In this document: in pieces, positions 11,699 through 37,063 of the stretch
Numbering within the stretch: the first letter of the stretch is position 1
How the letters are laid out: the number at the start of each line of letters is the position of its first letter
Source: a virus
Strand: one strand, 5' to 3'
Virus record (IMG/VR): IMGVR_UViG_3300013128_000014
Coordinates: 1 to 37,082 of that record
Length of the DNA: 37,082 nt
Translations under genes and position numbers: made by a program
The notes under the pieces: model-generated
Database searches by the model: none
Seen by the model: only the letters and a program-made list of their open reading frames with translations
Told to the model about the DNA's origin: nothing

Positions 11699-13882
11699 AT
11701 GGCCGGTGAACTTCTCTCTTCCAAGATTGTTGTCCAGGAAGTCGCGCCCCGCATCGCAGCTCTGCCGGTTGTGCAGACCGCCGTGTTGGGTGCCGTTGGA
11801 CAAGCAGTCCGCGGACCGCTGAACAGCGCAACCCTCGTGACCTCGTTCGAGGAATACGCGCGCATCTTCGGTGAGTACCGCAGCGGCTTCGAGCTTCCGC
11901 TTGGCGTGCGCCAGTTCTTCCTCCAGGGGGGTCGCACGGCGCACATCGTGCGTGCAGGAACCGGTGGTGCTGCCAGCTCCGGGATCGCCCTGAGCGGGTC
12001 GGATGCCTCGGGCACCGTGCTCAGCGCAAACAGCGCCCCGTTCGACCTTGAACCGGGACAGAACCTGGTCGTCTCCGTCGATGGCGGCGGAGATCAGACA
12101 GCGACCTTCGACGCCGCAGCTGCGTTCGTGACGGCGGGCAACACCGGCCCGTACGCTTTGGCCGACAACGACACGTTGACGCTTCGCATCAATGGTGGCA
12201 GCGTCCAGACCATCACGTTCAACGCGTCCGAGTTTGCGAACATTGCCGCAGCAACGGCGGCAGAAGTCGCTGCGGTCGTCAACGCAGAGGGGTCCGGTCT
12301 TTCCGCAACGGTGAACGCAAACGCTGTCCGCATCACGTCGGACCGTCGTGGCACCAGCTCGATCGTCGAGATCACGGGCGGCACCGGCAACACGATCGGC
12401 AAGCTCAACTTCTCCACCACGCCGGTCAACGGCACGGGCGATGTGGCCAACATCGACTCGGTCACGGCTTCGGAAGTTGCCGCGGTGCTGACGGCGGACG
12501 TGACCGGCGCAACCAGCGTCGTCTCAGGTTCGCAGGTTCGCATCACGTCCAACACCTCGGGCCTGTCCTCCAGCGTCCAGGTGAAAGGCACCTCGACGGC
12601 CATCGCCATCGGGTTCGACAACGCCGTTCACAGCGGGTCGGCTTCGGGCCTCACCTCGTCGTTCACGGCAACGGCATCCTCGGTCGGCACGTGGGGCAAC
12701 ACCGTTGTGCTGTTGGTCCGCCCCGCTTCGTCGGGTGTCGCTTCCGAGTTCAACCTGGAGATCCAGGTCAACGGTGCGGTTGCGGAGCGATTCGCCAACC
12801 TGACGACCCTCACGCCTTCGGCAGCGAACTACGTCTCGACCGTGGTCAACGCGTCGCAGACGGGCTCGTTGTACATCACCGTCGCCGTGAACAACGCTGT
12901 TCGCCCGAACGACAACACGGCTCCGGGCGTCGCGCTCACGGGCGGTGCTGAGCCCACGGTCACGGACACGCAGCTCATCGGCGGAACCTCTCCGTCGCTG
13001 ACCGGTATCCGGGCGCTCGACACGGTGGAGGACGTTACCCTCTTGATTGTGCCGGACGGCGCGACGGTCGGCGTACAGAACGCCATGATCACCTACGCCG
13101 AACTCACTCGTAGTCGCCGCATCTTCGCGGTCCTCGACAGCCCCGTCGGTGCAACAGCAGCCGTGATGCTTACGCACATGGCGTCGCTCACCGCCACCGA
13201 GAACGCGGCTATGTACTGGCCGCGCATTCGCATCCCGAACCCGGACCGCACCGTCTACGGCGCGGACGTTGAGAACATCGTGCAGTCGCACTCCGGTGCG
13301 CTTGCTGGTGTCATGGCCCGCAATGACGCTGGCGTGCCCATCGGCCCGTTCACCAACCCGGCGAACGTGGAAGACGGGCGTCTGTTCGGTGTTGTCGGGC
13401 TTGAGACCTCGGAAGTTCTCGAAGAGGCAAAGCGAGACTTGGTGTTCCCGAAGCGTGTGAACCCGATCGTTCGCGTGAACGGTCAGGGCTTCTTCGCGGA
13501 CGGTGCGCGCACCATGCTCGGCACCAGCAACTTCCCCTCGGTTGGCGAGCGCCGCGGCGTTTCGACCATCGAGATTCAGGCGGTCGCTGCTTTGCAGTTC
13601 GCAAAGAACAAGCCGAACACTCCTGAGTTGCGTGAGCGGGTGGAAAACACGCTCATCCAAATCATCCTCCCCTACGTCCAGGTGGGCGCACTGGCATCGC
13701 GAGATCCCAGCAAGGCGTTCTTCGTGGACGTGTCGGACCAGCTGAACAACGCAGCTGTCCAGGCAGCCGGACAGTTGAAAGCCCGCATCGGCCTCGCCAC
13801 AGCAAAGCCAGCAGAGTTCATCGTGCTGCTCGTCACCCAGGACACTCGCGCACTTGAGGAACTTCTCCAGTCGCAGGGATAA
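11699..13882 (+). CDS. Tail sheath protein with repeated inserted domain
   Basis: The sheath surrounds the tail tube and contracts to drive it into the host. The 727-residue protein has the sheath N-terminus ([20 protein letters not shown], then [17 protein letters not shown]). The conserved C-terminal half has [11 protein letters not shown], a variant [20 protein letters not shown] and [20 protein letters not shown]. Between about residues 100 and 330 is an inserted region, absent from minimal sheaths, that holds two related copies of a beta module near 184-227 and 254-297 ([17 protein letters not shown] versus [17 protein letters not shown], each followed by VRITS). These probably protrude from the sheath surface. 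A GGAGG ribosome site lies eight to ten bases before ATG 11699. Confidence 0.94.
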
Positions 13883-13922
13883 TTCGTAATCGCGCTCACA
13901 CAAAATCGGAGGAACGTAGACA

Positions 13923-14429
13923 ATGCCATCTCTTGCAAGTGCTCGTCCGCTACACGAGAAATTCAATTTCACCGTGTTGATCAAAGGTGCGGACTCCCTT
14001 CACTTTCAGAAGGCGTCCGAACTCTCCCAGGAAGTCGCGAAGATCGATTACTGGGAAGGTGGGGCCTTGGTTCCAATCAAGCACCCAGGCCGGGTGACGC
14101 TGTCCGACATCACGTTGGAGCGCGGCGTCGGCACGGACCAGGGGCTGCACGACTGGATGCACCAAGTCGCGGACGTGAAGCTCGCGGGCGGAATCGGCGC
14201 AGGCTTGCCTGTTGCGGATTTCACCCGTGAGGTTTCGATCCTGCAACACAACCGCCCCAAGACGGCGTACATCCGAAAGTACAAGTTGTTCGGCGCCTGG
14301 CCGACCAACTACGTCGCGGGTGACTGGGACAACAGCGTGGACGAGGTCATCATCGAGACGGTGACGATCACCTACGACCAGTTCCGCATGGAGAACCCGA
14401 CGGCCAGCAAGGGTCTTTCGAGCGTCTAA
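13923..14429 (+). CDS. Tail tube protein 1 (T4 gp19 family)
   Basis: This is a 168-residue tube subunit that stacks into the inner channel beneath the sheath. The family signature is clear: [20 protein letters not shown], then [20 protein letters not shown] and [15 protein letters not shown], ending with [17 protein letters not shown] and a strand [13 protein letters not shown]. It starts at ATG 13923 with a GGAGG ribosome site. It follows the sheath directly, the standard order in contractile tails. A second, diverged copy follows at 14444; this first copy is the more likely main tube subunit because it sits next to the sheath and has the stronger ribosome site. Confidence 0.9.
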
Positions 14430-14443
14430 AAAACGGCCTGAGC

Positions 14444-14953
14444 ATGCCAGCTCGCGAACTCTTTGAAGCGTTCAACTTCACCGTTTCGGTTGAAGGTTTC
14501 CCCGAAGAAGGGTTCCACTTTGCGTCATGCAGCGAGTTGGCGTTCTCTCAGGAGCGTATCGGTTTTCGGGAAGCCGGTGCGATCGTCCCCGTCAACGACC
14601 CGGGCTTTGTCGAGTATGACCCAGTCACGCTGACCCGGGGCGCGTCGCGAAACCGGATGCTGTACGACTGGGCCATTGGTGCCGCGTTGGCAGGCCCGGT
14701 GTTCAACTCCGCGGGCTACGTTCGGCGTGAGGTCCAGGTTATCCAGCGTGGACGCGCCCTGGCGTCCAACGGACGTAGCCGCGAGATCATTCAGGTGTAC
14801 ACCCTGCACCGCGCATTCCCGACCAAGTTCGTCGCCGGGGAGTGGGACAACAACAGCGACGCTGTTGTCATCCAGTCCATGACTCTGGCCTACGACTACT
14901 TCACCCTGAAAGTGCGAAAGCACGCAGATCAGCGTCTCGCAACTGGGTTGTAG
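14444..14953 (+). CDS. Tail tube protein 2 (T4 gp19 family paralogue)
   Basis: This 169-residue protein is aligned with the previous one along its full length: FNFTVSVEGF, EAGAIVPVNDPGFVEYDPVT, LTRGASRNRMLYDW, YTLHRAFPTKFVAGEWD and a final VIQSMTLAYDYF. Identity is low by eye, so the duplication is old. Contractile injection systems of the Afp/PVC type also encode a second tube protein that forms the initiator layer between baseplate hub and main tube; the same role is inferred here. It starts 14 bases after the first tube gene without a strong ribosome site, implying lower output. A promoter candidate and paired hairpins follow it. Confidence 0.87.
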   Translation: MPARELFEAFNFTVSVEGFPEEGFHFASCSELAFSQERIGFREAGAIVPVNDPGFVEYDPVTLTRGASRNRMLYDWAIGAALAGPVFNSAGYVRREVQVIQRGRALASNGRSREIIQVYTLHRAFPTKFVAGEWDNNSDAVVIQSMTLAYDYFTLKVRKHADQRLATGL

Positions 14954-29211: not shown

Positions 29212-29811
29212 ATGGCCGACGAACCCCTAGACGAATACCCAGAAGTCATCACCGGCTTCTGGGAATCACCAAAGCGTCTCGACCCCAGAGCCGTTGAGTT
29301 TTACCCAGAAGTCATCACCGGCTTCTGGGAATCACCGAAACGGCTTGACCCCAGGGCCGTTGAGTTTTATTTGGACGTCGTCCCGGGGTTCTTTGAGACA
29401 GGGAAGTTGTTTGGTCCTCAACCAATCGAGTTCTTCGCCTTGCCCGTCCTTGAAGCGGCACCCACGCCACCTGATGGTGTGCCGCCTGTGGTTACGTACG
29501 ACCCGCCATCGGGAACCGTACTGTCCGCACCTGGCCGTGTAATCTCGATTCACGCCACAGACGAAACTGAAATTCTGCGGTTCATGATCAGCGTGGAACT
29601 CGCGCCTGACCCTGATACCGGAGAACGCGTTTGGGAAGTGGTGTACAACGGCGCACGCTTCTCTGACAAGTATGCCGCGTCCTTCTTCGTCACGAACACG
29701 CTCACCTCCAAGCTCGCACGCATCGTTCGCAATGGTGGCTTCGGTGTTGGAGAGAATCCCCGATTTGAAGTCATACTGTTCGACAAAGCTGGCAACATCG
29801 CTACGTCATGA
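29212..29811 (+). CDS. Protein with tandem repeats and C-terminal Ig-like domain
   Basis: This is a 199-residue protein with an AGGAGG ribosome site before ATG 29212. Residues 9-30 and 31-52 are near-identical copies, each YPEVITGFWES followed by PKRLDPRAVEF, and residues 53-74 are a diverged third copy (YLDVVPGFFETGKLFGPQPI). After a Pro-rich linker (PTPPDGVPPVV), residues 95-199 look like an immunoglobulin-like beta sandwich with TYDPPSGTVLSAPGRVISIH and NPRFEVILFDKAGNIA. The repeats may be binding arms for another baseplate protein, with the number of copies flexible. The stop overlaps the next start (ATGA). Confidence 0.82.
   Translation: MADEPLDEYPEVITGFWESPKRLDPRAVEFYPEVITGFWESPKRLDPRAVEFYLDVVPGFFETGKLFGPQPIEFFALPVLEAAPTPPDGVPPVVTYDPPSGTVLSAPGRVISIHATDETEILRFMISVELAPDPDTGERVWEVVYNGARFSDKYAASFFVTNTLTSKLARIVRNGGFGVGENPRFEVILFDKAGNIATS
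29236..29433 (+). repeat. 66-bp tandem coding repeats, two near-identical plus one diverged
   Basis: The first two 66-base units (29236-29301 and 29302-29367) are almost identical at DNA level. A third (29368-29433) is clearly related only at protein level. The recent first duplication with an older third copy shows repeated expansion in frame. Confidence 0.88.
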
Positions 29812-34600: not shown

Positions 34601-35271
34601 TCACTGGGGGTGACACTGGGATCGCTGTCTTCGTGGGTAACGGTGCCGCACCTGCGAACAGTTACGGACGTTACACCATCAACAGCAACACCATCTCCAC
34701 GTTCAAAATCAACGGCATCGCGCTCACCGGGGGCGCCAGCTCCCCCACGTGGACGGTTCAAGGTAACACGATCTACACGCACCTCTCTGGTTCCGGCATG
34801 CGCGGAATCGTGGGTACAACGTTGCATAGGGCAGTGATCAGCGGCAACACGATTGAGTTCACGACAGGTGGCACAACAACCAATTTGATGGGCATCCGAC
34901 TCACAGGTACCGGCTCCGAAATAAACGTTAACGGAAACACGATTGCGCTGACCGGAAGTAGTACTGGGCGTAAAGGCGTCTACGTGCACGCAGATTCGCA
35001 GATGGTGATTGTCACCGGCAACCTAGTTTTCAGCCTGTCTCCCCTTGGCGTAGTCGGCATCCATCTCCACGATGGTTTCAGCGGCGGTGGCACCCTCCAG
35101 TGGGCTGCGTCAAACATGATCAACGTAGACCTCTCAGGTGTCGCGTTTCAAGATGACGCCGTTGGGAACAATTCAAGTTCTCCAATGGACATAGCTGGCG
35201 CAAATCCAGGTGTACCACCTGCGGCACTCAATAGCATCGACCTGAACTGGCGCAGAGGCACGCACGTATGA
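31621..35271 (+). CDS. Tail spike with right-handed beta-helix, possible depolymerase
   Basis: The 1216-residue protein is the largest in the window and the likely receptor-binding spike. Residues 1-60 (FYFRQRVLEGEMDDAFDDVE) look like an N-terminal baseplate anchor. Residues about 400-440 have DWGATLQAAITSVPSGGSVR, the opening of pectate-lyase-3 type beta-helices. From about 460 to 1180 are many short turns with VSG-, IHG-, IQG- or ISG-NTI units (HGNTITSV, QGNTIGVL, SGNTIEFT, NGNTIALT), the rungs of a parallel beta-helix. Such spikes often cut or bind surface polysaccharide; no catalytic residues can be named here. The C-terminus is short, with no chaperone domain. A GAGGT ribosome site lies about ten bases before ATG 31621. 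Confidence 0.88.
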   Translation: MANRKDFYFRQRVLEGEMDDAFDDVENADRQLARDIGSQQTADTAGVPISDIVTEPDDFNAIRGGINSGFIISFAGGIPSGGNPQPIIGVRVSAGSATDWQGRRVSTPTDLIVDVTSEGDAPVGEGGSTVGGAVVTPPAGQTRIVTLMVLFDRVLTDERVDGNAGTVLYNQAESFVFRAKAGNASVGTPTPPQGDADGIILVDLRVTEFNTVTSWDFSRRGDWIRTSVGVVGDIASTSQMQTGTLNNTGTDFIVPNARQAILRLLRSYAATVTDISAHVDNVNPSSTHTAANIDFKVPGSNWLDGSSLAARLPGGGNTDGVQGAFRELIDDLAASALNSDGAGRMGAMAQIAGPVAYAGNARYNVSAGSIRSQIKTLLDSIEQQVMDVTVGDGVATYGMFNTSDFAGDWGATLQAAITSVPSGGSVRVYILNPGTLNGSTACVTGNRNVFLHARPGTILNITANVIGFRATGASAFVHVENLTIRNLTTPTQTSVEFAGLFSARKCNFANGVLGTTAASRSVFEDCTLGGRTNILRGAFINASFLNCDFELSGPNNNDALWDGSDGAADVLINAQFTRCQFSAKNDVTPTFFTYFRFSDFDENITFDSCSFNDAANATTAGASERNFAGTAPRNITYRGCRIDTRGGVFNAAGGGVKVTIADCDITLAGSGSQTVFLLPASQTATDIDIKDNRVLQTDFNNTKRLVYTLVNATIERLSITGNKCVDLDTFFEFTKAMEVNISRNVMVNTTTGRGKNFIKTHSTWAVRNFSVTDNTVKGLQFNSTNQRAIDMQSGTFEDLSLRQNVHIANNRFEDIGTALGGGTTDNAYAIDINASLSHLQITGNTIRTVQSNNEAVGIRVIIAGNVVIHGNTITSVGDEFNCAATIPAAIVLFGCLRVRCTDNIGYSIGHAGTLAATGLYWAGDATSTDVVVHGNSFTNLSGVGPYGIYAAGSTKRLNIQGNTIGVLPELGTGIDLTDSSTDGTSQVNISQNNITGGDTGIAVFVGNGAAPANSYGRYTINSNTISTFKINGIALTGGASSPTWTVQGNTIYTHLSGSGMRGIVGTTLHRAVISGNTIEFTTGGTTTNLMGIRLTGTGSEINVNGNTIALTGSSTGRKGVYVHADSQMVIVTGNLVFSLSPLGVVGIHLHDGFSGGGTLQWAASNMINVDLSGVAFQDDAVGNNSSSPMDIAGANPGVPPAALNSIDLNWRRGTHV

Positions 35272-35600
35272 CGATGGAAGAACTCTTGGAGCAGTGCCTC
35301 AACTGTCAAGTCCCGACAGTTAAGGCACTGGCCAAGAAGGTCAAGACCAATTGGGACCAAGGTGTCGCCCCCAGCTCGAAGCAGATCAATGAACTCGCAA
35401 GCATGCTGGAGGACTTCAACTCGCCATGCACACGCGTGATGGAGGATGGACGGTGTAACGGTTGGTTGGCCAAGTACGGGCAGGAGTGCCAAATCCCATC
35501 ACAGCCGCCACACTTCTGCCCCTTCAGCGCACGTGAGAACACACCCTCGACCTTCCCGCAGTGCCCGGGTTACCGTACAGTGGAGAGGAACCGAACATGA
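35268..35600 (+). CDS. Small cysteine-rich protein after tail spike
   Basis: This is a 110-residue protein starting within the spike stop codon (ATGA). It has seven cysteines: CLNC near residues 10-13 and single Cys at about 54, 63, 74, 84 and 98 within CTRVMEDGRCNGW, ECQ, FCPF and QCPGY. The spacing could support zinc binding or a structural iron site, but it matches no family I recognise. It begins with a helix (TVKALAKKVKTNWDQGVA) and is coupled to the spike upstream and to the next gene (ATGA). It might be a spike chaperone, or the first of the accessory genes. Confidence 0.76.
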   Translation: MTMEELLEQCLNCQVPTVKALAKKVKTNWDQGVAPSSKQINELASMLEDFNSPCTRVMEDGRCNGWLAKYGQECQIPSQPPHFCPFSARENTPSTFPQCPGYRTVERNRT

Positions 35601-35875
35601 CCGAGCCCGCACAAACCCTTCGCGTCTTCATTGTCCATCCGAAGAATCCGAATCACCCGCCCCGCCCGCTGGCGTCTGACTTTCAACTCGGCGGACGACG
35701 GACTGTCGAACGACGTGCAGAAGCCAAGAACCTGATCGCCAGCATGGGGTACGCGTTGCGCACGCTCAACGTGACGGCATCGGGGCTCGTCGCCTACGTG
35801 TACCCGACCGAGCGCGTGCCCGGACAGACAGGCCGACTGCCCGGGTGGGTGCACCGCAAGCCCCCTACATCATAA
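35597..35875 (+). CDS. Small basic protein, unknown
   Basis: This is a 92-residue protein. ATG 35597 is chosen over an in-frame start at 35561 because it overlaps the previous stop (ATGA) and a GAGAGGA ribosome site lies 7-13 bases upstream. It is basic and Pro-rich: LRVFIVHPKNPNHPPRPLA, RRTVERRAEAKNLIASMGY and a C-terminal VYPTERVPGQTGRLPGWV. A strand-helix-strand order is likely (LRVFIVHP, then the helix, then LVAYVYPT). No family is recognised. It closes the spike unit; the gene after it has its own promoter candidate. Confidence 0.74.
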   Translation: MTEPAQTLRVFIVHPKNPNHPPRPLASDFQLGGRRTVERRAEAKNLIASMGYALRTLNVTASGLVAYVYPTERVPGQTGRLPGWVHRKPPTS

Positions 35876-35884
35876 CCAAAGTGC

Positions 35885-35913
35885 TTGAATCGCTGTAGTT
35901 GTTCTGATATACA
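35885..35913 (+). promoter_or_regulatory. Promoter for RHH gene, probably leaderless
   Basis: TTGAAT at 35885-35890 matches the -35 at five of six bases. A 17-base spacer ends in TGA and runs into TATACA at 35908-35913, an extended -10. Transcription should begin near 35920, at or next to the ATG at 35921, so the message would have almost no leader. Confidence 0.6.
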
Positions 35914-35920
35914 TGGATGT

Positions 35921-36103
35921 ATGCCTGACCCGAGCGCCAACGCCCCTTACGCCGCCCCGCGCAGCTTTCGTCTTGATGACGATTCGCTGGTGATTCTCCG
36001 GCAGCTTTCCCAGAAGCTATCCATCTCTCAAGCCGATGTCGTGCGTTTGGCCCTTCGCCGGTTGGGCGAGGCCGAAAAGTTGAAAAAGCTCAAGTCTTCG
36101 TGA
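35921..36103 (+). CDS. Ribbon-helix-helix DNA-binding protein (CopG/Arc-like)
   Basis: This is a 60-residue protein with ATG 35921; the TTG at 35885 is inside the promoter and is not used. The body RSFRLDDDSLVILRQLSQKL, then SISQADVVRLALRRLGEAEK, is the classic ribbon-helix-helix fold: a short N-terminal strand, helix 1, a turn and helix 2. Such proteins bind DNA as dimers through the strand. They repress their own or neighbouring promoters, or act as antitoxins. The N-terminal 10 residues form a short disordered arm. It has its own near-leaderless promoter and a small terminator after it, so it is a single-gene unit. No toxin gene is seen next to it. Confidence 0.82.
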   Translation: MPDPSANAPYAAPRSFRLDDDSLVILRQLSQKLSISQADVVRLALRRLGEAEKLKKLKSS

Positions 36104-36127
36104 CACGAAACGCATCTCGTAAATCCG

Positions 36128-36145
36128 CGCCAACCCTGGCGTTTT
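36128..36145 (+). terminator. Weak terminator after RHH gene
   Basis: CGCCA at 36128-36132 pairs with TGGCG at 36137-36141 around ACCC, followed by TTTT. The five-pair stem is short but GC-rich. It separates the RHH gene from the next promoter at 36156. Confidence 0.5.
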
Positions 36146-36155
36146 CAGTTTGTTC

Positions 36156-36184
36156 TTGCCGCCAGCTTTGTAGCGCGGTATGAT
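36156..36184 (+). promoter_or_regulatory. Promoter for SspB-like gene, probably leaderless
   Basis: TTGCCG at 36156-36161, a 17-base spacer and TATGAT at 36179-36184 form a good sigma70 match (-10 five of six). The start site would be about 36191, the A of the ATG itself. A second -10-like TATACA at 36184-36189 overlaps but is too close to the ATG. Confidence 0.6.
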
Positions 36185-36190
36185 ATACAA

Positions 36191-36628
36191 ATGAAAAATA
36201 GCCGAACCGTCACGGTCCTTTCCAAAGCTGCCTACATCAAGGAGCTGATCGCCCGAGATAAGATGGCCATTGTTTTCGGGCGCACCGACTACCCCGGTGT
36301 TGTGTTGCCGCCTCACTTGCACGGCAAGCCCTTCGCCGTGTTTGGATTCGACACCGCGGGATCCCCGCCCCTGTACAACTTCGTCATCGACGAGAACGGC
36401 ATCGGGGCCGACATGACCTTCAACCCTTCGGTGGTTGAGAAGCCCGAGGACGTGATCTCCCGGTGCTACTTCCCCTGGTCGGCGGTTTACGCCGTGCTGG
36501 AAACCCGGCAGCGGAAGGGGCTCATGTGGCACGAGGACGCCCCGCCCGCTGGCGTCGCGCACGGTGTGCCGCTGGACATCATGGAAGCGCCTGACAACGT
36601 CGAGTTGCCCATCGTGATGAGCGCCTAA
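36191..36628 (+). CDS. SspB-like protein, ClpXP adaptor candidate
   Basis: This is a 145-residue protein. The core KAAYIKELIARDKMAIVFGR, then PGVVLPPHLHGKPFAVFGFD, IDENGIGADMTFNP and CYFPWSAVYAVLE, follows the stringent starvation protein B pattern (hydrophobic helix, VP-x-HL, strand series, and FPWSAVYA close). In bacteria SspB tethers ssrA-tagged proteins to ClpXP for degradation. The C-terminus (PPAGVAHGVPLDIMEAP, then ELPIVMSA) has no obvious LRVVK-type ClpX-binding tail, so it might bind tags without delivery, or deliver by another end. It is predicted leaderless. The alternative is an unrelated family with a chance pattern match. Confidence 0.68.
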   Translation: MKNSRTVTVLSKAAYIKELIARDKMAIVFGRTDYPGVVLPPHLHGKPFAVFGFDTAGSPPLYNFVIDENGIGADMTFNPSVVEKPEDVISRCYFPWSAVYAVLETRQRKGLMWHEDAPPAGVAHGVPLDIMEAPDNVELPIVMSA

Positions 36629-36649
36629 CCCCAACCCCCCGGAGACAAC

Positions 36650-37063
36650 ATGCCTTCGCTATTCGTCGGGAACCTTCCCTACGCCGCAACCAACCACGAC
36701 TTGGAAGCCCTTTTCCTCCAATACCAGTTCCAGCCCAAGTCGGTCCGCATCATCCTCGACCGGGAGACCAACCGGTCCCGGGGGTTCGGGTTTGTGGAGT
36801 TGGCGACTGCTGACGAGTGCGCACGAGCGAAGCTCCAACTCGACGGGGGTTACTTCATGGACCGCCAAATGAACCTGCGCGACGCGGACTCGCACCCGCC
36901 GCGCTCAAACAACGGCCCGGGTGCCCGCCCAGCCCGGTCGTTCACCCCTCCAGCAAATGCCAAGAACGGCGCACCACGCTTCGATGACCGCAGCTCGAAA
37001 CGCGATTCGCGACGACAGTCCCGCAAAGATCGCGAACGTGACCGAGACGACGATCGCTGGTAA
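36650..37063 (+). CDS. RRM RNA-binding protein with basic/acidic RD-rich tail
   Basis: This is a 137-residue protein with GGAG before ATG 36650. Residues about 3-80 form one RNA recognition motif: RNP2 LFVGNL near 4-9 and RNP1 RGFGFVEL near 44-51, with helix NHDLEALFLQYQFQPKSVRI between. The layout matches the small single-RRM proteins of bacteria such as cyanobacterial Rbp types. After a Pro/Asn-rich linker, the last 30 residues are nearly all Arg, Asp, Ser and Lys (RQSRKDRERDRDDDRW), a disordered tail of the RS/RD kind. It may bind phage or host messages. It lies 21 bases after the SspB-like gene. A five-pair hairpin (CTGGA, TCCAG) begins right after the stop at the window edge. Confidence 0.87.
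   Translation: MPSLFVGNLPYAATNHDLEALFLQYQFQPKSVRIILDRETNRSRGFGFVELATADECARAKLQLDGGYFMDRQMNLRDADSHPPRSNNGPGARPARSFTPPANAKNGAPRFDDRSSKRDSRRQSRKDRERDRDDDRW

Follow-up and report, generated by a model that had tools for sequence, protein, structure and literature searches.

SspB-type proteins of tailed phages have been described on several occasions. The 2017 report on pf16 (PMC5587285) describes a phage SspB, and an SspB-like ClpXP adaptor was named in phage RAY (PMC10299810). A tblastn search with E. coli SspB gives matches in 79 phage records, including that of phiKZ, although some of these are mislabelled bacterial contigs. The known phage proteins (pf16 gp18, Erwinia phage RAY gp039 and PHIKZ232 of phiKZ) are recognizable by sequence, and in the neighbourhoods looked at, no annotated RHH or RRM genes adjoin theirs. 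Phage repressors of the Arc/CopG kind (PHROGs 3887 and 3180) are small RHH proteins with a dyad overlapping their own promoter. Bacterial single-RRM proteins of the Rbp family (NF058537; e.g., cyanobacterial Rbp1 and the Acinetobacter RRM protein) combine one RRM and intact RNP1 and RNP2 motifs with a charged tail. RRM proteins are rare in phages, and no relevant paper on phage RRM proteins was found in the literature. Here we describe a phage locus in which an RHH gene, a gene for a highly diverged SspB-like protein and an RRM gene are adjacent.

The window analysed here is the entire virus record IMGVR_UViG_3300013128_000014 (37,082 nt); the record itself is incomplete and ends 19 bases past the RRM gene. 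It encodes components of a contractile-tailed phage, namely portal, head protease, major head, tail sheath, tape measure, baseplate and fibre-type proteins. On the + strand, the gene for a 1216-aa fibre-type protein is followed by two small genes and then by the RHH, SspB-like and RRM genes. All three ORFs of this trio are intact, and their side-by-side placement after the tail genes, as well as the domain calls made in the initial annotation, hold. A tail-sheath search identified a distinct relative, IMGVR_UViG_3300037264_003406 (G003; its contig is denoted L018), with a 79% identical sheath and the same gene order (fibre, 110-aa, 92-aa, RHH, SspB-like, RRM, HExxH-type and coiled-coil-type genes). 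A more distant phage, G005, has a 48% identical sheath. The features of the region are the following.

35268..35600, + strand: gene for a 110-aa protein of unknown function, upstream neighbour of the cassette; homologue 53% identical in G003, another in G005
35597..35875 (annotated start about 35597), + strand: gene for a 92-aa protein of unknown function, overlapping the 110-aa gene; homologues in G003 (45%) and G005 (32%)
35894..35913, + strand: dyad TGTAGTTGTTCTGATATACA over the RHH promoter, candidate RHH operator; one of the two matches in the window; in the relative at L018 10354-10373
35921..36103, + strand: RHH (Arc/CopG-type) DNA-binding protein, 60 aa; PHROG 3887, E 3.8e-5
36127..36142, + strand: terminator-like hairpin after the RHH gene, then TTTTCAGTTTG; from a pattern scan with 4 found and 2.4 expected, thus common by chance
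36156..36184, + strand: sigma-70-like promoter TTGCCG-N17-TATGAT of the SspB-like gene; TTGCGT-N17-TACGAT at the same distance in the relative
36169..36189, + strand: dyad TGTAGCGCGGTATGATATACA, overlapping the -10 element of the SspB-like promoter; from the pattern search, kept in the relative
36191..36628, + strand: SspB-like protein, 145 aa; identified by Foldseek/VIA-align, profile comparison and the homologue in the relative
36650..37063, + strand: protein with a single RRM and a basic/acidic tail, 137 aa, with its own Shine-Dalgarno sequence; RRM_1, E 8.7e-16

The trio is not the end of the phage: contig IMGVR_UViG_3300013127_000029 (L002), 99.9% identical to the window over the same region, runs about 9 kb beyond its last base. 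Past the RRM gene, this contig encodes a small HExxH-motif protein and a 223-aa protein, followed by genes on the opposite strand. In both phages, the gene directly 3' of the RRM gene encodes such a small HExxH protein (HEFVH at L002 10950-11387, HELVH at L018 11583-12086), which is apparently membrane-associated, belongs to no Pfam family and is possibly a small metalloprotease or a lysis protein. No tRNA or tmRNA genes are present in the window or in L002; in the relative, eight tRNA genes, for Leu (four), Glu (two), Tyr and Met, lie at L018 13320-16675, near an HNH gene. Two further observations concern the tail region of the window. The protein encoded at 29212-29811 has a stretch of about 22 residues repeated in tandem almost perfectly (EVITGFWESPKRLDPRAVEFYP), and the adjacent genes after the sheath, at 13923-14429 and 14444-14953, look like diverged duplicates of a tail-tube-type gene because both match one and the same place in relatives.

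Between the window and the relative, the encoded proteins are 77% (RHH), 34% (SspB-like) and 48% (RRM) identical, the third codon positions of the trio are just 36-42% identical and dN is lower than dS for each gene; thus, the gene order and the proteins have been kept while the silent sites turned over. Co-occurrence of the three genes in relatives, on which the initial annotation had staked its proposal, is accordingly seen in a diverged phage and in the same order. In G005, homologues of the 110-aa and 92-aa genes are adjacent (ORFs read), with no trio in the bases read; in a phage with a 39% identical sheath (G009), neither the trio nor these homologues were found in the bases read. The contigs of the remaining relatives end before the cassette region and are not informative on the trio. 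The trio is known from two phage lineages only and looks like a clade-specific accessory cassette located after the tail genes and ahead of the next block. Given that a distant sister phage keeps this cassette with the same two promoters, it probably represents a real host-control module.

The middle protein of the trio shows no significant sequence match in Pfam, PHROGs, NCBIfam, PDB, INPHARED, PLSDB or IMG/VR beyond the same clade, and no relative in two scans of species genomes. With respect to the curated cut-off of PF04386 (27 bits), the window protein gives no match and the protein of the relative scores 12.1 bits, a weak similarity (E 0.21) that is its sole Pfam match; the protein is denoted SspB-like because both fall short of this cut-off. 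The AlphaFold2 models of the two proteins, built from two-sequence alignments, are of low confidence (mean pLDDT 56-58), that of the window protein, for which the relative supplied the sole alignment partner, having a mean of 56 and core blocks up to 81. In a Foldseek search of the PDB with the window-protein model, the first 18 matches are all SspB with probability 1.00, after which the probability drops to 0.13, and VIA-align gives Z 10.7 for SspB and Z 5.1 for the next fold. The first 19 PDB matches of the modelled protein from the relative are likewise all SspB, and among the viral models of BFVD, the named SspB proteins of phages Noxifer, Rebecca and phiA8-29 are near the top of the matches. 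Independently of any structure prediction, comparison by hhalign with a profile derived from 12 aligned SspB proteins of bacteria, plasmids and phages yields a probability of 93% and a score of 46.5 over residues 15-118, whereas 200 column-shuffled versions score no higher than 21; the E-value applies to one comparison with the SspB family picked beforehand. In this alignment, SspB positions are kept, e.g., P86, G101 and an aromatic residue at 104. Judging from the two models and the profile comparison, the middle protein very likely adopts the SspB fold and is likely homologous to SspB; the fold prediction, which the initial annotation had singled out as decisive, is supported by Foldseek on both models, by VIA-align on that of the window protein and by the profile score.

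The resemblance to SspB (PF04386; 1ou8, 1ox9 and 8et3, and the alphaproteobacterial 2qas and 2nys) encompasses the predicted fold of residues 8-116, the order of motifs, the proline before the last strands and an acidic stretch followed by a short tail with a hydrophobic patch. The phage protein differs from SspB in its identity of about 15-18%, below the cut-off of Pfam, in its short tail without an LxVVK end and in the RRM gene that adjoins its own gene; it is also much more diverged than the SspB homologues of pf16, RAY and phiKZ and, unlike these, is encoded in a putatively dyad-controlled setting. Hfq and WYL domains appear among the structure matches at Z 4-5, so that the middle protein might have just the Sm-like barrel in common with SspB, being a small protein that binds RNA or other nucleic acids alongside the RRM protein. 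This is very unlikely considering that SspB scores far higher and tops both Foldseek lists, and that the SspB positions listed above are kept in the profile alignment.

At the C-terminus of E. coli SspB, the LxVVK-type end is the ClpX-binding peptide. Most of the 12 SspB proteins compared end in LxVVK or near it, whereas the two phage proteins end in NVELPIVMSA and NVKLAVIIGNDPTPSDA, with no end of this type and no lysine. A protein of this kind might retain the peptide-binding fold while having lost the ClpX tether, and serve as a decoy that shields phage or ssrA-tagged proteins or competes with the host SspB; competition of this kind has been put forward for the SspB of pf16 on the basis of docking (PMC5587285). 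However, the hydrophobic patch NVxLx[IV][VI] is kept in the otherwise diverged tails of both phages, and one plasmid SspB, which ends in ALSVVVSN, also lacks the lysine; the decoy reading is plausible but rather unlikely. A tail that has the patch and no lysine is compatible with both the adaptor and the decoy readings, and binding of the predicted SspB-like protein to ClpX is possible.

The RRM protein contains both RNP motifs (LFVGNLP and RGFGFVEL) and scores 70.4 bits against the bacterial Rbp model NF058537, below the cut-off of 100. Unlike the bacterial Rbp genes, the RRM gene here is phage-borne and probably co-transcribed with the SspB-like gene. It has no PHROG match and no convincing match among isolate phages; its cellular relatives were sampled through plasmids only. 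A single strict RNP1 pattern matches 144 IMG/VR stretches, some of which are perhaps host DNA, and among the best 80 of these 144, an SspB-like gene or this RHH gene is found within about 4 kb in this clade only. Two groups of RRM matches in records labelled as phages were set aside: those in 'Acinetobacter phage MD-2021a' (CAKLQH020000005.1, L048), where rep and ybaL on the contigs give a chromosomal look, and that in Microcystis phage MaAM05 (MW495066.1, L042), where zur and mggB adjoin the RRM gene. The phage labels of these records, with chromosomal-looking genes inside, may mislead surveys of phage genes.

The SspB-like and RRM genes probably form one operon, as suggested by the gene arrangement: the RRM gene follows with a Shine-Dalgarno sequence, and in the relative, its ATG abuts or overlaps the stop codon of the SspB-like gene. 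The ATG of the SspB-like gene itself lies 6 bases past the -10 hexamer, with no Shine-Dalgarno sequence, such that the expected transcription start is the A of the ATG. By consensus score alone, this promoter is unremarkable (1 found, 0.5 expected), and the claim rests on conservation. Both the RHH and the SspB-like gene have starts of the leaderless type, with the ATG directly after the -10 element, as proposed in the initial annotation, and both the spacing and the lack of a Shine-Dalgarno sequence are kept in the relative.

Both starts, that of the RHH gene and that of the SspB-like/RRM pair, carry a 20-21 bp dyad, TGTAG-N6/7-YGATRTACA. Within the window, the pattern TGTAG-N5..8-YGATRTACA matches exactly twice against an expectation of 0, and the relative has it at the corresponding two gene starts; the other genes of the window, the approximately 9 kb beyond and the other phage loci included in this search lack it. 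A four-sequence alignment of both promoters aligned the dyads poorly, and pairwise alignment combined with the pattern search was used instead. The arms TGTA..TACA form the dyad; in both phages, those at the SspB-like gene are longer, TTTGTA..TACAAA. With a looser form of the dyad, these two sites are again the only ones in the window (0.09 expected), and the relative has two more loose matches. A loose TGTA..TACA dyad at L018 14116-14135, just upstream of an opposite-strand HNH-nuclease gene (13573-14100), may be due to chance or may serve this regulator as a third site.

The RHH protein matches the 'transcriptional regulator' family PHROG 3887, and the domain is recognizable as RHH; RHH_3 and RHH_1 of Pfam both have E near 0.009 and are under their cut-offs. 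The initial annotation had suggested an effect on host transcription, but because the candidate operator is limited to the two promoters of the cassette, the RHH protein is better read as a putative local regulator of its own cassette. It differs from the phage repressors of the Arc/CopG kind in that the same candidate dyad is repeated at the neighbouring SspB-like/RRM operon. Toxin-antitoxin-like or superinfection-immunity units, too, typically have a small RHH gene whose promoter carries a dyad; in such a unit, the RHH protein would act as antitoxin or repressor and the toxic component would be encoded by a neighbour. A weak match to the ParD family (E 0.097) points in the same direction; with no toxin-family match in the neighbours and with separate RHH and SspB-like promoters, such a unit is quite unlikely. 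The dyad could also be read by a regulator other than RHH. Its overlap with the -10 region would further be compatible with a mere promoter element used by a host or phage factor, the cassette then consisting of three unrelated accessory genes that travel together and whose co-inheritance, known from two lineages only, could be neutral. This combination is quite improbable in view of the lack of the dyad at any other gene in the window or in the 9 kb beyond, and of the gene order kept despite saturated third codon positions.

The preferred reading, to which we assign a probability of roughly one in two, is that of an RHH repressor that regulates its own gene together with an SspB-like/RRM operon, whose products redirect host proteolysis and bind RNA. 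Under this scheme, RHH dimers would bind the TGTA..TACA dyads overlapping the -10 regions and repress both their own promoter and that of the SspB-RRM pair. On release, the SspB-like and RRM proteins would be made together from the same mRNA; the former would present selected or ssrA-tagged proteins to the host ClpXP, or else protect its targets from ClpXP, and the latter would bind RNA and alter its stability or translation. The timing of this switch, like the binding and delivery steps, is part of the model. A tighter coupling, with the RRM protein and the SspB-like adaptor acting as one unit that joins RNA recognition and proteolysis under the RHH repressor and its leaderless promoters, e.g., to remove proteins or stalled products of particular RNAs, seems unlikely.

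The initial annotation considered the trio unfamiliar from phages. This stands for the RHH/SspB-like/RRM combination, which was found in this clade only, and not for phage SspB itself, which was already known from pf16, RAY and phiKZ-like phages. What is new here is the combination of the SspB-like and RRM genes and the shared dyad at both cassette promoters. The locus appears to pair a ClpXP-adaptor fold overlooked by sequence annotation with an RRM protein under one small candidate regulator. If the proposed scheme is true, this cassette would give a small and testable example of joint control over host protein turnover and RNA by a phage, and would suggest that phage SspB-like proteins are under-counted.
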